Positions 4,364-37,017 of a stretch of DNA of 37,017 bases are shown in pieces. Positions within the stretch are counted from its first letter, which is position 1. Each line of letters opens with the position of its first letter. The translations under genes were made by a program, and so were the position numbers. The notes under the pieces are model-generated. The model had not been told where the DNA came from. It made no database searches and was given only the letters and a program-made list of their open reading frames with translations. The stretch comes from a virus, in IMG/VR virus record IMGVR_UViG_3300033143_006648, positions 1 through 37,017 of that record, one strand, 5' to 3'.

Positions 4364-4845
4364 GTGACGTGATAAATATACGGACATATTATTGTAAGAA
4401 ATGTGAGTTTGAAACAACGACTTATGCTCGTCTAAGCTCTCATAGGGTTGTGACTGGCCATATAGGATATACATTTACGAGAAAACCAGAAAAGACATCA
4501 TCCGAAGATGAAATTGCAAAAATAAGAAAAAGGAATGGCATTACTCCCAATAATAGGAATGGTAGAAGGCCTCTTACAAAACCTATTTATATTCCGATCC
4601 CCACCCAGGTGTCGTTTGCGAAAAGATGCACAAAGCTTAAAAGACCCATGTGGAAGTTGGCAGATGAGATTTTTTTAAGTTTCTTAAAAAGAGGTACAAT
4701 GATAAATATATTGAAAAAAGAGATCGAGTGGCACAAAAACAACACGATTGGCGGTCATACACGAACCTTTATGAATGGAATGGTCGCGGGTTTAGAGCAA
4801 GCAGTCAAACAACAAAAACTTAACCACAATAAACACACAAAATGA
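4360..4845 (+). CDS. C2H2 zinc-finger protein
   Basis: A 161-residue protein starting with a classical C2H2 finger: C12-x2-C15-x12-H28-x5-H34 (YCKKCEFETTTYARLSSHR, then VTGH). Such TFIIIA-type spacing is uncommon in bacteria and phages. The remainder is basic and helical: KPIYIPIPTQVSFAKRCTKL, then WKLADEIFLSFLKRGT, and a C-terminal helix. The last eight residues (LNHNKHTK) and the bases encoding them are identical to the end of the gene finishing at 5639. A DNA- or RNA-binding role is likely from the finger; the target is unknown. Confidence 0.75.
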   Translation: MSDVINIRTYYCKKCEFETTTYARLSSHRVVTGHIGYTFTRKPEKTSSEDEIAKIRKRNGITPNNRNGRRPLTKPIYIPIPTQVSFAKRCTKLKRPMWKLADEIFLSFLKRGTMINILKKEIEWHKNNTIGGHTRTFMNGMVAGLEQAVKQQKLNHNKHTK

Positions 4846-4847
4846 AA
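4813..4847 (+). repeat. 35-bp direct repeat, copy 1
   Basis: This 35-base stretch is identical to 5607-5641. It covers the last codons, stop and a few following bases of the C2H2 finger gene and gives it the same LNHNKHTK ending as the gene at 5292. The genes are otherwise unrelated, so the repeat looks like a joint left by recombination or a conserved 3'-end/start-proximal element rather than a duplicated gene. Confidence 0.9.
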
Positions 4848-4921
4848 AGATGTATAGCAAAACATCAAATAACTAAACAAGTTTAAAAAGATGTAAAGAA
4901 TATGGGGAAGATAAAAGAAAT

Positions 4922-5065
4922 ATGCCGTGGATAGATAAAAAAAATAAACAAATAAGAAGCATAAGTGGTGAGGTTGTTGCGACCTTTAAAAAATATAAAG
5001 ATGAAAAAACATGGAAGTACGCAAGTAAATCAGCACCGAAAAACAGAAGAATTAAACCAAACTAA
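4922..5065 (+). CDS. Small basic hypothetical protein
   Basis: A 47-residue frame beginning MPWIDKKNKQIRSISG and ending KNRRIKPN, in an otherwise empty 230-base gap. It is rich in Lys and Arg, has two Trp, and is preceded by GGGGAAG about 11 bases upstream. The spacing is long, so the start is uncertain. It fits the density of small genes in this region, but composition alone could produce such a frame. Confidence 0.45.
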   Translation: MPWIDKKNKQIRSISGEVVATFKKYKDEKTWKYASKSAPKNRRIKPN

Positions 5066-5295: not shown

Positions 5296-5639
5296 ATAAA
5301 AAACTAACCAAAAAGGTGGAGGAGATATTGGAAGAGGCTTTTTGGAATGTTTGCTTAGAGGCACACAAAGACGTGGCAAAAGGCTATTCCTATGAACACA
5401 GGTATGGTTTAACTAAAACAACCAAACAACTCACCTCTCTATTCCAAAAAGAAATATCAGACGCTTTAGAGGGGACGAAAATAAAAGATGAGACTACTAT
5501 CAACATAGTAAATTTAAAAGCGAGAGGTGTTGAAAATTTAACGTCTTACTCTGAGGGTGTATCGGATATGATTAAAGAACACAACAAGCGGATAGATAAG
5601 AGGAGTCAAAAACTTAACCACAATAAACACACAAAATGA
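5292..5639 (+). CDS. Hypothetical protein ending in the LNHNKHTK repeat
   Basis: A 115-residue charged, helical protein. The first part (KKVEEILEEAFWNVCLEAHK) and the middle (LTSLFQKEISDALEG) are amphipathic. The C-terminal LNHNKHTK is encoded by a 35-bp stretch identical to the end of the C2H2 finger gene about 800 bases upstream. It is coupled to its upstream neighbour by ATGA, and its stop overlaps the start of a further small frame. Function unknown. Confidence 0.6.
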   Translation: MNKKLTKKVEEILEEAFWNVCLEAHKDVAKGYSYEHRYGLTKTTKQLTSLFQKEISDALEGTKIKDETTINIVNLKARGVENLTSYSEGVSDMIKEHNKRIDKRSQKLNHNKHTK

Positions 5640-5641
5640 AA
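5607..5641 (+). repeat. 35-bp direct repeat, copy 2
   Basis: Exact second copy of the 35-base stretch at 4813-4847, again covering the final codons and stop of a gene. In this copy the ATG inside the element (5636) opens a 59-residue frame, whereas the corresponding ATG in copy 1 opens only a 14-codon frame. Confidence 0.9.
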
Positions 5642-21459: not shown

Positions 21460-24400
21460 ATGGCTCAATCTCAAATAAATGTTACAGACTTTAACGATAC
21501 AGATTCAGATACTTTTGGAATTAAACAAGGTGCTAGGTTTGTAGTTAGAAACTCAAGCGGTATTCCTTATGTTTTTGTAGAGAATACAGCCGAATTTGGT
21601 ATTGAGGCATGGAAAGGCAACGGGACTGAACCCACTCAATTTAGTAAACAAGATACAGGTGGTCAACCAGATGGTGCTTCTTATACTGGTCTTTCAGTAG
21701 CAATAGATAGTTCGAATATTGTTCACTGTTCTTATTATGGTGATTTAGACAAGGCAACTCCTCTTTTGTATGCAACTTTTACAGCAGATGGTTCTACTGA
21801 TACTTGGGCTTCTATTGACACTTCTTTAGTCGCAGATATAGGTGAACTCCCTGTTGTAGGAAGTTTATTTACAGCTATTGCAATAGACTCAAACGATGTC
21901 CCCCACATAGCCTACAACGAATATCCAAAAATAGGTGGTGCTAACACTTATACTCTTGACTATATAAACAAAACAAGTGGAAGTTGGCAGACTCCTATTG
22001 AAGTTAACCATATTCAAAATAGAGACCATGCTCATTTGGATATAACTATAGATGCAGATGATGTTCCTCAAATTACTTCTATTAATATTACTGCAGGTCA
22101 AGATGTTTTATACGCTTTTCAAGGAGATGTTAATAATGCAACTTCTTTTACTTCGAACGGATTAGACACTAATGCAACAGGTGTTTCTTCTTCCATTTGT
22201 ATTGATTCATCGGGAAACACATATATTGGTTGGTCTGATGCCACTGATAGTCAACTTCATGCTTTTAAGTTGTCTTATGGTGGAGATTGGAGTACAGGAT
22301 GGTCAGAATTAGATAGTGGAATATCTTGTGTTCAGGGAATATCGGTTGTAGCAGATGGTACCGATATTTATTTCTTTTTTGAGGATGCTAGTAATGATAT
22401 TCATTATGTTAAATATGATGGTTCATGGACAGATGGTGGAACTCTCGAAACAGGCACGTTTAATACAGCAAAAGCCAAATGGGCGTTTTGGGTAGATAAT
22501 GATAGTACAGGGTCTTTAATGACTTCAAATATATATCTTTTTGATGCTTCAGATACGGGTGGAACTCCTGGCGACCCAGATAATGATTGGACAAGTGATG
22601 GTAATGCAGTTGATGGAAATACTGGTACAGATGCTTCTGTTACCAATACTGGAACTAACACTACCAATGAACTTCAAATAGAAGGAACAAATGCACCCTC
22701 AAGTGGTATCTCAATAGACATGGTACGAGTCAGAATGTATGCCGAGACTGTTGGAACGGCAAATATTACTGTAGAAATATGGACTGATGGGGGAGTATCA
22801 ACTGGTGAATCACTTGGTTCTTATGTTACTGGGCTTGGTCATGCTGGATGGGCGGGGTTTGTTGTTTTATCAACTCCAAGTGGTGGTTGGACATGGGCAA
22901 AAATACAAGCATTAGAAGCTGTTATATATGCTACTGCCACAGGGATTTCACAAACCATATCAAGAGTTGAGGTTATTGTTTCTGAATTTAATTCTGCCAC
23001 AGAACTAGACTACGTTTTCCAAGATGATGCAGATAGTGATGTGTACTTTAATAGTTTGAGTCTGGTTGTTGCGGATTCTGATTCTGTTTCACCATCAGCC
23101 AGTATTTCTCCATCTGTGTCGGAGAGTGCATCTATTTCTCCATCTGCCAGTATAAGTCCTTCGGCATCAATAAGCCCTTCAGCATCAATAAGCCCTTCAG
23201 CATCAATATCTCCTAGTGTGTCAGAGTCAGCATCAATATCTCCTAGTGCATCTATTAGCCCCTCTGTTAGTGAAAGTGCATCCATCTCTCCAAGTGCCAG
23301 TATAAGTCCTTCTGTTAGTGAAAGTGCATCAGTATCGCCTTCCGCTTCCGAGTCTGCTAGTATTTCTCCCTCAGCATCAATTTCTCCAAGTATAAGTGAG
23401 TCAACAAGTATAAGTCCTTCGGCATCAGTATCGCCGTCAGTATCAGAAAGCGCTTCAATATCTCCATCGGCTTCAATATCTCCATCTGTTTCTGAGTCAG
23501 CGTCAGTCTCACCTAGTGCATCTGTAAGCCCTTCCGCTTCTATTAGCCCATCTGTTTCTGAGTCGGCATCTGTTTCCCCCTCGGCGTCTATAAGCCCATC
23601 TGTTTCTCAGTCGGTATCCATCTCCCCATCAACATCTGTTAGCCCTTCTGTATCAGAATCTGCATCAATATCTCCATCGGCATCAATATCGCCGTCAGTG
23701 TCAGAAAGCGCTTCCATCTCCCCATCAACATCTGTTAGCCCTTCTGTATCAGAATCTGCATCAATATCTCCATCTGTTTCAGAATCCGCATCTGTTTCTC
23801 CCAGTGCTTCTATAAGTCCAAGTGCATCACCTTCTGCTGATTCTGCATCTATTTCCCCCTCGGCATCCATATCACCGTCAGTGTCTGAATCAGCTAGTAT
23901 TTCACCATCTGCAAGTGTATCTCCATCGGTAAGTGAGTCCGCCTCTGTATCTCCTAGTGCTTCAATTAGTCCAAGTATATCGGAGAGCGCATCTATTTCC
24001 CCCTCGGCTTCAATATCTCCTTCTGTTTCAGAATCAGCTTCAATATCTCCATCGGCTTCAATATCTCCTTCTGTTTCAGAATCAGCTTCAATATCTCCTT
24101 CTGTTTCTGAGTCGGCATCAATATCTCCTTCTGTTTCTGAGTCGGCATCAATATCTCCTTCTGTTTCTGAAAGCGCATCCATCTCTCCATCGGCATCAAT
24201 ATCTCCTTCTGTTTCTGAAAGCGCATCCATCTCTCCATCGGCATCCATCTCTCCATCAGTTTCTGAAAGCGCTTCTATTTCTCCCTCAGCATCGGTTTCA
24301 CCTAGTGTTTCAGAATCAGCCTCTGTATCTCCTAGTGCATCTATAAGTCCATCAGTGTCAGAAAGCGCTTCCATATCTCCTTCTGTTTCTGAAAGCGCAT

Positions 24401-25233
24401 CAGTCTCTCCTTCAGCATCCATATCTCCTTCTGTTTCTGAAAGCGCATCAGTCTCGCCTAGTGCTTCGGTTTCACCTTCTGTATCTGAATCCGCTTCTAT
24501 TTCTCCTTCTGCAAGTATAAGTCCATCAGTTAGTGAATCGGCATCAATCTCTCCTTCTGTTTCTGAAAGCGCATCAGTAAGTCCTTCTGTGTCGGAGAGT
24601 GCCTCTATTTCACCAAGTGCATCCATAAGTCCAAGCGCATCACCTTCTGCGGGTTCATCTTCTATTAGCCCTTCAGCATCCATCTCACCATCAGTTTCCG
24701 AAAGTGCTTCTATTTCACCAAGTGCATCTGAATCAGCAAGTATAAGTCCATCAATATCTGAATCAGCATCCATCTCACCATCTGCAAGCATAAGTCCATC
24801 AGTTTCAGAATCTGTTTCTATTTCACCTTCTGTTAGTGAATCGGCATCAATATCCCCATCTGTTTCAGAATCAGCATCCATATCTCCATCGGCATCCATA
24901 TCTCCATCGGCATCCGTGAGTCCATCAGTTTCCGAAAGTGCTTCTATAAGTCCTTCCATCAGTGAATCTGCCTCAGTATCTCCTTCCATCAGTGAATCTG
25001 CCTCAATAAGTCCATCAGTTTCAGAATCTGTTTCTATTTCACCAAGTGCATCTGAATCAGCAAGTATAAGTCCATCAGCCTCAATTTCTCCATCAGCCTC
25101 TCCTAGTGCATCACCTTCACCGGTGGGGCCGTGGTACACCAAAAATCCAATTGATTGGAATACAAAAGCACCAATTGATTGGAATACAAAAGCACCAAAC
25201 AAATGGTATAATAAAGTTTCGAGAGAGCCTTAA
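21460..25233 (+). CDS. Serine-rich repeat virion protein with beta-propeller head
   Basis: A 1257-residue protein without a signal peptide. Residues about 65-330 contain five blade-like repeats of the form (V/I)AIDSxxxxH(I/C)xY (for example [17 protein letters not shown] and [18 protein letters not shown]), indicating a beta-propeller; residues about 365-530 look like a beta-sandwich ([20 protein letters not shown]). Residues about 540-1221 are a stalk in which every second residue is Ser. The last 36 residues carry W-x-T-K repeats. I infer a long fibre with a binding head, attached to the virion by its C-terminus and possibly O-glycosylated by the enzymes encoded upstream. A decoration or accessory spike is the likeliest role. 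Confidence 0.85.
23077..25122 (+). repeat. Serine-alternating repeat tract
   Basis: About 680 codons encode Ser at every second position, the intervening residues being mainly Ala, Ile, Val, Pro and Glu in recurring units SISPSA and [10 protein letters not shown]. The phase breaks only twice, at Asp794 (SPSADSAS) and Gly1065 (SPSAGSSS), each after the motif ISPSASPSA. Serine is written with TCT, TCA, TCG, TCC, AGT and AGC, so the DNA is much less repetitive than the protein, although some stretches of 20-30 bases are still exact copies. Confidence 0.95.
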
Positions 25234-25250
25234 TGTGTTATTTATAAAAT

Positions 25251-25952
25251 ATGACAATAGACGCTGAAACATCAACTTCAAGGAGAGGATATTTGAGTCG
25301 GGCAGAACTGGTTCAATTTGCCAATATCACCATAAATGATGAGAATGAAGCGGACGATCAGATTTCACAGGCCGAAGAAATTATTGACGGTTACGTGGGT
25401 CATCAAAACAAATTTCTCGTAGGTTCAATTAAAGGTAGATCTTCAAGTGCCGGGGGAAATACTACGTTTTATTTAGACACAGATCAATTAAACGTATTCC
25501 AAAAGAATTATTTTAAAGGTATGGAGGTTGAGATTCTTGGAGGAACAGGGGAGGGTCAAAGAAGGAGAATTACAGCTAGTGAATATGCATCCGGTAAAAT
25601 AACCGTTTCAGATGCTTGGGACACTAATCCGGCTATTGGATCGTTTTTCAAGATATATCAATTGGGTAAATTCCCAAGAGTGCAAGATGTAAATTATTAT
25701 TCCAACACAGATCCGGAGCAATATTATAAACAGATACCGGAAGCAGTAAAGCGCGCAGTTTCCGCTCAAGTTGAGTTTGTTATCCAAATGACTGAGGCTT
25801 TTTTCAATACGGACAAATCCGAAAAGGAAAGCGAAAAAATTTCCACCTATGCATATAAAAAAGCATCCGGTCAAGCTATTGGCAATAAAATCATCGCTCC
25901 AAAAGCTAAAAACCTGTTAAGAGGTATAAGAAATCGAACAGGAAGTTTTTAA
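25251..25952 (+). CDS. Head-tail connector (adaptor) protein
   Basis: A 233-residue protein at the start of the connector block. An N-terminal GYLSRAELVQFANITINDEN, then EADDQISQAEEIIDGYVGHQ, and later PEAVKRAVSAQVEFVIQMTE, match the helical gp6/gp15-type connector adaptors that dock on the portal. A beta insertion (about 55-130; MEVEILGGTGEGQRRRITAS) of the type seen in larger members lies between the helices. Position and fold pattern agree; exact family needs a profile search. Confidence 0.75.
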   Translation: MTIDAETSTSRRGYLSRAELVQFANITINDENEADDQISQAEEIIDGYVGHQNKFLVGSIKGRSSSAGGNTTFYLDTDQLNVFQKNYFKGMEVEILGGTGEGQRRRITASEYASGKITVSDAWDTNPAIGSFFKIYQLGKFPRVQDVNYYSNTDPEQYYKQIPEAVKRAVSAQVEFVIQMTEAFFNTDKSEKESEKISTYAYKKASGQAIGNKIIAPKAKNLLRGIRNRTGSF

Positions 25953-30428: not shown

Positions 30429-32171
30429 ATGGCAGTACCCACAGTCACAACTCAATCGGCCTCAAGTGTTGGCTTAAAAAGTGCAGTAGGAAATGGAAAC
30501 ATCACCGTCGGAGCCGGAAACACAAGACGCGGTTTTCAATTTAACACGGTCGAATATCCCGACAAACAAGTTTTTGAAGATGGATCTTTCGGAACGGGCG
30601 CATTTGCGCTCACAATGGAAGGTCTTACCCCGGGACAAAAATATTGGTATAGAGCATTTGCCGAAAATCCCGATGGTGTCGGATATGGTGGATGGACCTC
30701 TTTTACGTGTATTGCCTCAACCTACAACATTACAATTAATGGAATCGATAGGACCGCGGATGTTATTGCAAAAACCTTAATAATCACAGACACAATAAAC
30801 GATCAAGTAAATACGTGTAATTTCACACTCGATGACCTAAGTGGAAACGGAGTACCCTCAAACGATGAGGAAATTGTAATTACTTTAAATGATGGCACAA
30901 AAATATTCGGTGGATTTGTGGTCAACAGCTTTTTAGAAAACAAAGCAAAAGGTGGGGGAGCGGTAAAAATTAGAGTAAAATGCACCGACTATACAAGACT
31001 TTTGGATCAAAACTTAGTACATAAAAGCTATCTCGATATGACCGACAAGGCAATTATTGAGGCCATAATTGATACTTATGCTCAAGGATCGGGAATTACT
31101 ACAAACAATGTCCTCGAAGGCGTTACAATCGATCAAAAAGCCTTTAATTACATCCAAATCAGCGAAGCGTTTAGGCAAATTGCAGAACTTACCGGGAGGA
31201 ATTGGTACATCGATTATGATAAAGATATTCATTATTTCCCGCTCACTACTGATTCAACACCTTTTGATATAGACAGCGCAGAAAATAAATATTGGGGATT
31301 AAACATCTCAAAAGATGCATCGCAAATTAAGAACAGGATATATGTTAGAGGTGGTACAAAACTTTCCGATGCAACTACTTATTTAACCACAGGAGATGGG
31401 GAAAAAATTCATTTCGTGCTTCCGGACAAACCCCACAGCGTCACGGTGGAAGTTGACAGAGGTGGTGGATTTGTAGAGGAGTCTGTGGGTATCAAAAACG
31501 TGGACACATCCGGTTTTAAGTGGTATTTGAATTTTCAAGAAAAATATATCGAGCAAGATGTGGAGGAAGATGTTTTAACCTCAACCGACACGTTTAAATT
31601 AACTTACGAATATGACATTCCTATCTTAGTGGCCGTTGAAAATACAGCCTCAATTATTGCGAATGGCCAAAAAGAATATGCTATTTTCGATAAACAAATT
31701 ACCACAACTCAATCCGCAAGAGATCGAGCAACTGCGGAACTTACAGACTACGCAGATAGTATTATCGAGGGGAGTTTTAAGACTTGGGAAACAGGATTTG
31801 TAAGCGGTCAATATATAAATATTAATCTTTCCGACTATGGAATTAATGATGATTATATTGTTCAAAAAGTCGTGGCCATTTCGATCGGAGCCGGGACCTT
31901 TAGATATGAAATATTCGTTGCAAGCGCAAAAACACTTGGAATTATTAAATTCTTGATCGAATTGCTCGAAGCAAATAAAAATTTGATCGAATTGGATGAT
32001 GACGAAGTTGTGGATGAACTGCTACAATCAAGTGACTCACTATTAAGTGATTCTTTGATGGACAGCTTGGTAATTGACAGCACGGGACCATACCACGTTT
32101 ATCAAAATGATAGTGCGCCAATTGAAGATTTAGGTATAGGAAGATGGAAATTATCTCAATTTAAATACTAA
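30429..32171 (+). CDS. Tail protein (distal tail / hub-like) with N-terminal FN3-like domain
   Basis: A 580-residue protein after the tape measure. Residues about 1-95 look like a fibronectin type III or Ig-like domain (LTPGQKYWYRAFAENPDGVG). The core (YNITINGIDRTADVIAKTLI, RVKCTDYTRLLDQNLVHKSY, and YIQISEAFRQIAELTGRNWY) resembles the hub domains of siphovirus tail-tip proteins related to gp27/gpD-like folds. The C-terminal 75 residues are Ser/Asp/Leu-rich (LLQSSDSLLSDSLMDSLVID). It probably forms the tail tip platform carrying the adhesins. Confidence 0.75.
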   Translation: MAVPTVTTQSASSVGLKSAVGNGNITVGAGNTRRGFQFNTVEYPDKQVFEDGSFGTGAFALTMEGLTPGQKYWYRAFAENPDGVGYGGWTSFTCIASTYNITINGIDRTADVIAKTLIITDTINDQVNTCNFTLDDLSGNGVPSNDEEIVITLNDGTKIFGGFVVNSFLENKAKGGGAVKIRVKCTDYTRLLDQNLVHKSYLDMTDKAIIEAIIDTYAQGSGITTNNVLEGVTIDQKAFNYIQISEAFRQIAELTGRNWYIDYDKDIHYFPLTTDSTPFDIDSAENKYWGLNISKDASQIKNRIYVRGGTKLSDATTYLTTGDGEKIHFVLPDKPHSVTVEVDRGGGFVEESVGIKNVDTSGFKWYLNFQEKYIEQDVEEDVLTSTDTFKLTYEYDIPILVAVENTASIIANGQKEYAIFDKQITTTQSARDRATAELTDYADSIIEGSFKTWETGFVSGQYININLSDYGINDDYIVQKVVAISIGAGTFRYEIFVASAKTLGIIKFLIELLEANKNLIELDDDEVVDELLQSSDSLLSDSLMDSLVIDSTGPYHVYQNDSAPIEDLGIGRWKLSQFKY

Positions 32172-35523: not shown

Positions 35524-35700
35524 ATGTTAAATTGGACCAAATCAGTTAGAGCAGTAGCAGTAGTAATTTTTGTTATTGGAATAAACGTCGGACTTTTCAC
35601 CGGCAAGATCCCCGTAGAAGTTTATAGTCAAATATCAATGCTTGTTATTGGTGCATATTTCGCGAGAAGAAGCACCGATGCCGAAAATGGAAAAGATTGA
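35524..35700 (+). CDS. Holin candidate (two membrane spans)
   Basis: A 58-residue frame starting MLNWTKSVRAVAVVIFVIGI, continuing through a short turn (FTGKIPVEVYSQ) to a second hydrophobic helix (SMLVIGAYFARR) and a charged C-terminus (STDAENGKD). Two spans, short length and charged tail next to the endolysin fit a class II-like holin, which forms membrane holes for the cytosolic endolysin. It begins 4 bases after the preceding gene. Confidence 0.7.
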   Translation: MLNWTKSVRAVAVVIFVIGINVGLFTGKIPVEVYSQISMLVIGAYFARRSTDAENGKD

Positions 35701-35710
35701 CAAAGAGATG

Positions 35711-35716
35711 TATAAT
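35711..35716 (+). promoter_or_regulatory. Consensus -10 box (TATAAT) upstream of the large hairpin
   Basis: A perfect TATAAT follows the holin gene. A TTGACA at 35697-35702 is only 8 bases away and cannot be its -35. If active, transcription from about 35723 to the T-run at 35838 would give an RNA of roughly 115 bases ending in the large hairpin. Confidence 0.3.
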
Positions 35717-35752
35717 TGAGACACGGAAATTCGGACACACAAAGTAGTGAAG

Positions 35753-35838
35753 CCTTTTTTGAGAAGGGTGGAAATGGATTAGTTTTACTACTTTTCTAAC
35801 CGATCCACCGTGCCACCCTGCTCAAAGAAGGTTTTTTT
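35753..35838 (+). terminator. Long-stem hairpin with T7 tail abutting the next ATG
   Basis: Arms at 35753-35771 and 35813-35831 are complementary at 17 of 19 positions, with one additional G-U pair and one mismatch. A further inner pairing (GGAT/ATCC) is possible in the loop. Seven T follow directly (35832-35838). This is a strong terminator for the late operon. Unusually, the T-run is immediately followed by the ATG of the next small gene, so read-through or an attenuation switch may control that gene. Confidence 0.8.
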
Positions 35839-36009
35839 ATGGAAGTAGTAATAATAAAAGGACATAAAAGCGATTGTTGCGAGGCCCCTGTGTCCTCTGA
35901 GATCACCCCGGAAGGCCTTAAAAGGTATCTATGCCACACTTGTACCCAGTATTGCAATTTACTCAGTGAGATTGAAGAAACGGACGCCACCGTCATGGCG
36001 GAAGAATGA
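35839..36009 (+). CDS. Small zinc-ribbon protein
   Basis: A 56-residue frame: MEVVIIKGHKSDCCEAPVSS, then EGLKRYLCHTCTQYCNLL and an acidic tail. The C-C ... C-x2-C ... C arrangement (C13, C14, C32, C35, C39) is a zinc-ribbon pattern seen in very small phage and bacterial proteins. No Shine-Dalgarno: the ATG directly follows a terminator T-run, so expression needs read-through or special initiation. Coding character is convincing from the cysteine pattern. Confidence 0.65.
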   Translation: MEVVIIKGHKSDCCEAPVSSEITPEGLKRYLCHTCTQYCNLLSEIEETDATVMAEE

Positions 36010-36284
36010 CGGCCGACTGACCGACCGACCGGATCGACGTTTAACTGCTTTCTTTTAAAGAAGAATAAACTCGAAAGAGTGAAGGCACCTCAAGCGAATC
36101 GCTTAGGAGAACTGAGAGTAGGGAGGGAAGGGAAGGAGGGTACTTGCTTGGAGCCTCTTAGCCGGCGCGGAGCACTAAATGGGGCTTGAAAACTGTGGGA
36201 AAAACATCATATCGAGCAGGTCCTCGAAATGATAACTAAATCGTAAAGTCGGAATCGCATATTATGCTTTACAATAACTACCAC
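36010..36284 (+). other. Structured noncoding segment (ncRNA, origin or packaging candidate)
   Basis: No supportable gene. It starts with short GACC repeats (CTGACCGACCGACCGG) and contains several hairpins: ACTC-GAAA-GAGT with a GNRA tetraloop (36069-36080); CCT(C)AAGCG-AAT-CGCTTAGG (36088-36107); and ATCAT-A-TCGAG / CTCGA-A-ATGAT (36206-36233, ten pairs around one A-A). A G-quadruplex motif lies between them. The base composition (GC- and purine-richer than surrounding genes) and stacked hairpins suggest a functional RNA or a replication or packaging site. I could not match it to a known RNA family by eye. Confidence 0.55.
36121..36140 (+). other. G-quadruplex motif
   Basis: GGGAGGGAAGGGAAGGAGGG has four GGG runs separated by loops of 1, 2 and 5 bases, a classic intramolecular quadruplex pattern. 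It lies inside the structured intergenic segment, not in a gene, so it is not explained by codon use. Confidence 0.75.
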
Positions 36285-36314
36285 TTGACAAACAGTTTAC
36301 ATAAAGCTTACAAT
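36285..36314 (+). promoter_or_regulatory. Strong sigma70-like promoter of the early region
   Basis: TTGACA (36285-36290), an 18-base spacer and TACAAT (36309-36314, 5/6). The 16-base stretch TGACAAACAGTTTACA (36286-36301) is shared with the promoter near 14909. It is the best promoter of the window and precedes the block of genes that continues across the closure into the recombination genes. The first ATG is 11 bases past the -10 box, so the leader would be only about 4-5 bases. Confidence 0.75.
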
Positions 36315-36689: not shown

Positions 36690-37017
36690 ATGAAAATAAA
36701 AAAACAAGTTGCAAGTCTAAAATTAAGCAAAAAACTCAAAGAGCTTGGAGTGAAACAGGAGAGTTTGTTTTACTGGGTCCGTGTTGTTGAAAATCGGAAA
36801 GAAAGTTTTGTGGGACCTGAATATAATTTATTTTTACAATCACGGAACAAAAAAGACAGGGTTTCAGCCTTCACAGTAGCAGAGTTGGGGGAGATATTAC
36901 CAAAGTCAATTGTTGTGGGGAAAAAGAAGTATTGGCTTCAATTTGAGATTCAGGAGTTGCAAGATGGGTGGAGTTGTCAATATAAGAGTTTTCCAAGAGC
37001 AGTAAAATTTTTTGAAG
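36690..37017 (+). CDS. Conserved phage hypothetical protein, 5' part (continues at position 1)
   Basis: The first 109 codons in this window of the 149-residue protein described at the start; because of the repeated ends the last part is present twice. It starts MKIKKQVASLKLSKKLKELG and includes VKQESLFYWVRVVENRKESF. The full-length product is obtained only by joining at the 114-bp overlap, ending at 236. Confidence 0.85.
   Translation, partial: MKIKKQVASLKLSKKLKELGVKQESLFYWVRVVENRKESFVGPEYNLFLQSRNKKDRVSAFTVAELGEILPKSIVVGKKKYWLQFEIQELQDGWSCQYKSFPRAVKFFE
36904..37017. repeat. Terminal direct repeat marking circular closure (right copy)
   Basis: Exact copy of positions 1-114. Removing one copy gives the 36,903-bp unit. 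Confidence 0.93.

Follow-up and report, generated by a model that had tools for sequence, protein, structure and literature searches.

It appears somewhat probable, as judged from predicted RNA folds, that a transcription attenuator gating the early genes is encoded at the lysis/early junction of the phage analysed here, where the lysis genes give way to the early ones. The logic of an attenuator is suggested by the folds themselves, since a truncated leader RNA is predicted to form a helix between two strands (PK1 and PK2), while the full RNA forms a long terminator reusing the same 5' arms. Alternative predicted folds, a conserved position and geometry, and complementarity without sequence conservation were established for this element across related phages.

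Phage genome and host

The window, i.e. the whole stretch of DNA that was analysed, corresponds to a phage record 37,017 bases long. It displays an exact terminal repeat of 115 bp (36903–37017 identical to 1–115) and an ORF that crosses both ends. The contig was therefore considered as circularly closed, with a unit of ~36.9 kb (36,902 bp). All recognised genes are located on the + strand. Family matches were obtained for an Erf-like annealing protein, a RusA-like resolvase, a terminase, an SPP1-like portal, a P22-like coat protein, a tape measure protein and an amidase endolysin. The early genes run from ~36.3 kb over the ends of the record and are followed by the structural genes and by the lysis genes, the last of which ends at 35,700.

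Relatives of the tail protein (alignment A1) with 60–61% identity were found in MAG contigs labelled Candidatus Gottesmanbacteria or Patescibacteria group bacterium, and weaker ones in additional genomes from the same phylum as the Gottesmanbacteria MAG. As these relatives sit in Patescibacteria MAG contigs, we infer that the host is likely a member of the Patescibacteria, and the phages with the junction element would probably infect this group as well.

Some side observations were made on the genome. The N-terminal ~90 residues of the tail protein (30429–30720) find matches in the repeats of numerous proteins encoded by Patescibacteria genomes, in the manner of a shared surface-protein domain. 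The GC skew becomes negative solely at 22501–25500, within an ORF of 1257 aa on the + strand (21460–25233) that is overlapped by an ORF of 531 aa on the - strand (23607–25202); this may reflect an unusual composition or an opposite-strand gene. Finally, a stretch of 35 bp (5607–5641) matches a second place (733–767) in the 99% identical relative L002, which suggests a small repeat difference between both genomes.

A conserved layout at the lysis/early junction

The junction cassette, located at 35.69–36.31 kb of the window, recurs in about a dozen related contigs. Contigs reaching the junction were collected by a search with the tail protein, which is encoded about four kb upstream (L184, L188, L189, L190, L193, L194, L203, L206, L207, L214, L222 and L240), and were completed with L268 (tail protein in genome contigs), L094 (Erf search) and L281 (motif-tuned pattern search). 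A query with the downstream ORF of 73 aa returned no relative. Synteny followed via Erf or via the gene after the second promoter (P2) revealed a mostly different gene order, L094 being the only useful case.

In the recurrent order, the end of the lysis genes is followed by a TTGACA promoter-like site, a leader ending in a long hairpin with a T-run, a small ORF, a gene-free stretch of ~220–500 nt, a second TTGACA promoter and the early genes. The start codon of the small ORF touches the T-run in most loci. The small ORFs themselves are mutually unrelated, some of them resembling zinc ribbons, which indicates that the layout, and not a protein, is what stays constant. An HNH gene is present at the junction in L193 and L094. 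Three contigs (L184, L194 and L206) reach the junction without the predicted bistable element and contain plain terminators only.

In the window, the small ORF (35839–36009, + strand) codes for a Cys-rich product of 56 aa (CC ... CxxC) with no family match, and its slot is occupied by unrelated small ORFs in the relatives. The first promoter-like site, P1 (TGGAAA-17-TATAAT, 35688–35716, + strand), lies where the last lysis gene ends and scored 10 of 12 matches in a consensus scan; P1-type sites are no more frequent in the region than expected by chance, which makes P1 weak on its own. At this position the relatives mostly display a TTGACA site. The second one, P2 (TTGACA-18-TACAAT, 36285–36314, + strand), scored 11 of 12, the best within 34.0–37.0 kb, in agreement with the sequence-only reading, which had placed the strongest early promoter here. 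The exact motif [CG]CACTTGACA was found at the P2 position in three relatives (L189, 16085; L190, 15772; L193, 10342). P1, P2 and the promoters of the relatives are all defined by consensus matches only.

A leader with two competing predicted folds

On the + strand of the window, the leader comprises PK1 (AAAGTAGTGAA, 35741–35751), the 5' arm of the terminator (35750–35771), PK2 (TTTACTACTTT, 35784–35794) inside the terminator loop, the 3' arm (35813–35834) and a T7 run (35832–35838) directly 5' of the ATG of the small ORF. The arms were recognised both as an inverted repeat of 22 nt with 86% complementarity and in the predicted fold, and together with the T7 run they form the stable hairpin and U-run expected of an intrinsic terminator. 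PK1 is complementary to PK2 and pairs with it in the predicted nascent RNA. The same arrangement was found in each junction leader examined, where a strand of 7–13 nt directly 5' of the terminator complements a strand within the terminator loop, as in L189 (CTGGTTCAGC/GCTGAACCAG), L193 (TAGGATTAGT/ACTAATCCTA), L214 (TGCAAACACA/TGTGTTTGCA) and L188 (GCTAAACAC/GTGTTTAGC).

The pattern was first spotted by eye and submitted to mechanical tests afterwards. Shuffling of each locus gave p values for the PK complementarity of 0.001–0.036 in ten loci (0.036 in the window), with a combined value of 2e-11 across loci that share descent. A tight mechanical scan of the tail-protein contigs identified 7 matches, all at the junction, against 0.125 expected, and a slightly wider one added L240 (8 against 0.5 expected). 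A loose scan was unspecific (55 against 36.5 expected) and was superseded by the tighter criteria and by a natural control. In this control, 8 of 9 junction terminators reached a PK score of at least 19, compared to none of the 64 other hairpin/T-run sites of the same contigs (p ~7e-10).

This control bears directly on a simpler explanation, in which an ordinary late-operon terminator ends the transcription of the lysis genes and the gene-free segment behind the small ORF is an unconstrained spacer before the early promoter. A hairpin with U7 is indeed expected at the end of a late operon, and the segment in the window is neither more structured than its shuffles nor provided with a detectable homolog (see below). 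However, the complementarity between loop and upstream strand sets the junction terminators apart from the other sites, and a small ORF beginning right at the T-run in most loci is odd for the end of an operon. A plain terminator with filler might account for the gene-free segment but not for the statistics of the leader, and it is regarded as rather unlikely.

The attenuator reading is further based on the predicted folds. In 11 of 12 loci (L222 being the exception), RNAs truncated at PK2 are predicted to form a closing PK1:PK2 helix that encloses small hairpins, whereas full-length leader RNAs are predicted to form the long terminator hairpin before the T-run with the same 5' arms, weakly so in L094. 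An upstream fold competing with the terminator, as expected for an attenuator, is thus found among the predicted structures. The position of the element in the genome is the same across the relatives that were read. Between phages, the PK1 strands display a mean identity of 31%, which is near random; divergent strands with maintained complementarity are expected if selection acts on pairing only. The MFE model gives the terminator fold a much higher stability than the truncated one. Termination could therefore be the default state, and the switch would perhaps be kinetic or absent.

As a separate observation, PK2 of the window (35784–35794) is in addition complementary to the beginning of the 56-aa ORF (35843–35857) and could hide the start codon region in a read-through RNA; no such complementarity was seen in the relatives that were looked at.

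Proposed mechanism

In the proposed attenuator, RNA polymerase would start at P1 and produce the leader RNA, which presumes that P1 is in use. As soon as PK2 is made, PK1 would pair with it and generate an anti-terminator, in which a closing helix surrounds one or two small hairpins. After the final ~25 nucleotides have emerged, the small hairpins could lose their 5' arms to pairing with the 3' arm, which would give the long terminator hairpin followed by U7. The winning fold would then set the outcome, either a stop with a short RNA of ~115 nt or read-through past the small ORF and the gene-free segment, on toward the early genes. In this scheme, the hairpin would terminate transcription, the PK fold would antiterminate, and the segment would be transcribed.

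A conserved ligand-binding core of the kind expected for a riboswitch was not seen in the leaders, given the low identity of the PK strands and the lack of an Rfam match. As an aptamer-like core is not conserved, the trigger is more likely to be kinetic, or a protein or RNA acting in trans, than a small-molecule ligand. No description of such an element was found in the open-licence literature, which does not prove novelty.

The gene-free segment downstream of the small ORF

The sequence-only reading had singled out the segment 36010–36284 as a possible new structured RNA, replication origin or packaging site. The elements that it named are present: the GNRA-tetraloop hairpin (ACTC-GAAA-GAGT, 36069–36080), the AAGCG-AAT-CGCTT hairpin (36092–36104), the ten-pair hairpin (ATCAT-a-TCGAG-CAGGTC-CTCGA-a-ATGAT, 36206–36233) with one A/A mismatch, and the four-run G-quadruplex motif (GGGAGGGAAGGGAAGGAGGG, 36121–36140). 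Its distinct composition was likewise confirmed, with a G+C content of 47% against 39% for the window. The gene-free stretch extends from 36010, after the 56-aa ORF, to ~36325. Within it, a region named RNA2 (36010–36256, + strand) is predicted to fold with a closing helix (CCGACT, 36013–36018; AGTCGG, 36247–36252) that encloses the three hairpins and the G-rich tract, but this structure is not significant in the window genome. Compared to shuffles, the stability of the segment is no better than chance (MFE z of -0.61 and -0.93), and a hairpin of at least 10 pairs occurs in 28% of them. The G-quadruplex motif is the only one of the genome (0.18 expected on that strand) and is absent from the equivalent segments of all 11 relatives. 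According to the predicted fold, some of the G-rich tract is base-paired to the CCGACCGACC tract, forming a rod made up of 2-bp steps and small loops, and the formation of a quadruplex is thus not required.

A DNA-level function, namely a replication origin or a packaging site within 36010–36284, would agree with a segment that is gene-free, G+C-rich, adjacent to the early genes, and carries repetitive GACC/GGGA tracts as well as the G-quadruplex motif. The GC skew does not turn at 36 kb and iteron-like repeats were not found, which speaks against the origin, and the motif is missing from the relatives. Packaging sites are usually located near the terminase genes, which here lie 6–8 kb away, and no observation points to such a site in the segment. 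Such a function is thus considered highly improbable.

The structured-RNA claim was partly supported: position and the stability of the equivalent segments in relatives speak for it, while the copy in the window lacks significant stability and detectable homologs. In 13 loci including the window, the equivalent segments gave a mean z of -1.87 against -0.35 for controls of the same contigs (p=0.0003), the opposite strand being somewhat less stable (mean z of -1.50). The segments of L189 and L190 equivalent to RNA2 are homologous (nhmmer E ~1e-9) and non-coding. Aligned with each other, they support a rod helix containing purine internal loops as well as a 3' hairpin. In this fold, which shows some compensatory changes, 5 of 31 pairs are changed on both sides, the two sequences being too few for a formal covariation test. 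A covariance model built on this pair (R1) retrieved no additional member in 60 sources, nor in 380 genomes from the phylum to which the Gottesmanbacteria MAG belongs. The Rfam search gave no hit for the segment: with Rfam 15 at the gathering threshold, the window and 21 related loci yielded only tmRNA/tRNA elsewhere in L142 and L089, and permissive thresholds gave no credible match. Nothing useful came from searching phages and plasmids with the region by DNA BLAST, and an exact DNA pattern from the segment had no match in IMG/VR. RNA2 of the window is a probable member of a fast-evolving structured segment, and the best-supported element lies just outside of it, at 35741–35838.

Further hairpin-rich gene-free stretches were observed before the early genes of L094 (5180–5560, with no Rfam match) and L222 (7467–7860), with z of ~ -2.2 to -2.5; they are possibly structured RNAs of their own. 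In L153 (~4820–4980), a long inverted repeat (cggccgcgacctaaacatatcc ... ggatatgtttaggtcgcggcc) is located in a gene-free region upstream of a relative of the window-end gene.

A control in trans has also to be considered, in which the terminated leader RNA or the second RNA acts on nascent leaders to cause termination, or controls the small ORF, for immunity or copy control. The order of parts at the junction corresponds to the one described for IsrK and P4, with a promoter, a short RNA, an intrinsic terminator, a small ORF and a second RNA (PMC4825925). In several relatives, a leader stretch upstream of PK1 (GGCAAG, GCCAAG, TTGGCAAAG) complements the inner hairpin arm, but these copies are individually weak (p 0.05–0.56) and none was detected by eye in the window. 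Moreover, in none of 11 loci was the second RNA more complementary to the leader than expected (p 0.07–1.0). A P4 CI/seqA or IsrK type of control is accordingly judged improbable.

Significance and comparison with known systems

Gene regulation in phages of Patescibacteria is little known, their hosts being mostly uncultured. With the junction element, a concrete target for mutational tests is available at the late/early boundary of these phages. Other switches of this type may widely go unnoticed, because an RNA that keeps its pairing logic and not its letters escapes sequence-based RNA searches. As a speculation to which we give little credence, these phages might use an RNA-only switch, in which the terminated product of the two-state leader, perhaps with the fast-evolving second RNA, sets early expression versus silence and drifts to a specificity of each phage.

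The late leader of lambda (pR'-tR') works through the Q protein, and the put RNA of HK022 acts on the polymerase. The junction resembles a lambda-type late leader in that a promoter and a terminated leader stand beside the lysis region and read-through would control a block of phage genes. It differs from lambda Q and HK022 put by a leader with a predicted bistable helix between loop and upstream strand.

Attenuators of the plasmid pT181 type rely on mutually exclusive terminator and anti-terminator folds (cf. PMC4878617). The leader with two competing predicted folds, one of them an intrinsic terminator before a gene, is shared with them; here, in contrast, only the pairing geometry is kept, the site is the early/late boundary of a phage, and neither an antisense transcript nor a ligand was identified. 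With IsrK of Gifsy-1 and CI/seqA of P4 (PMC4825925), the junction shares a promoter, short RNA, terminator, adjoining small ORF and second RNA-like segment in a phage regulatory region, but it displays no complementarity of the second segment to the leader, no recognised homologous genes and an unconserved leader sequence. GOLLD, ROOL and OLE are large ornate RNAs (PMC12286853). The segments described here are shorter, evolve faster and have no Rfam match to any of the three; they have in common with them that structured RNAs occur in stretches devoid of genes, some of these in phages.
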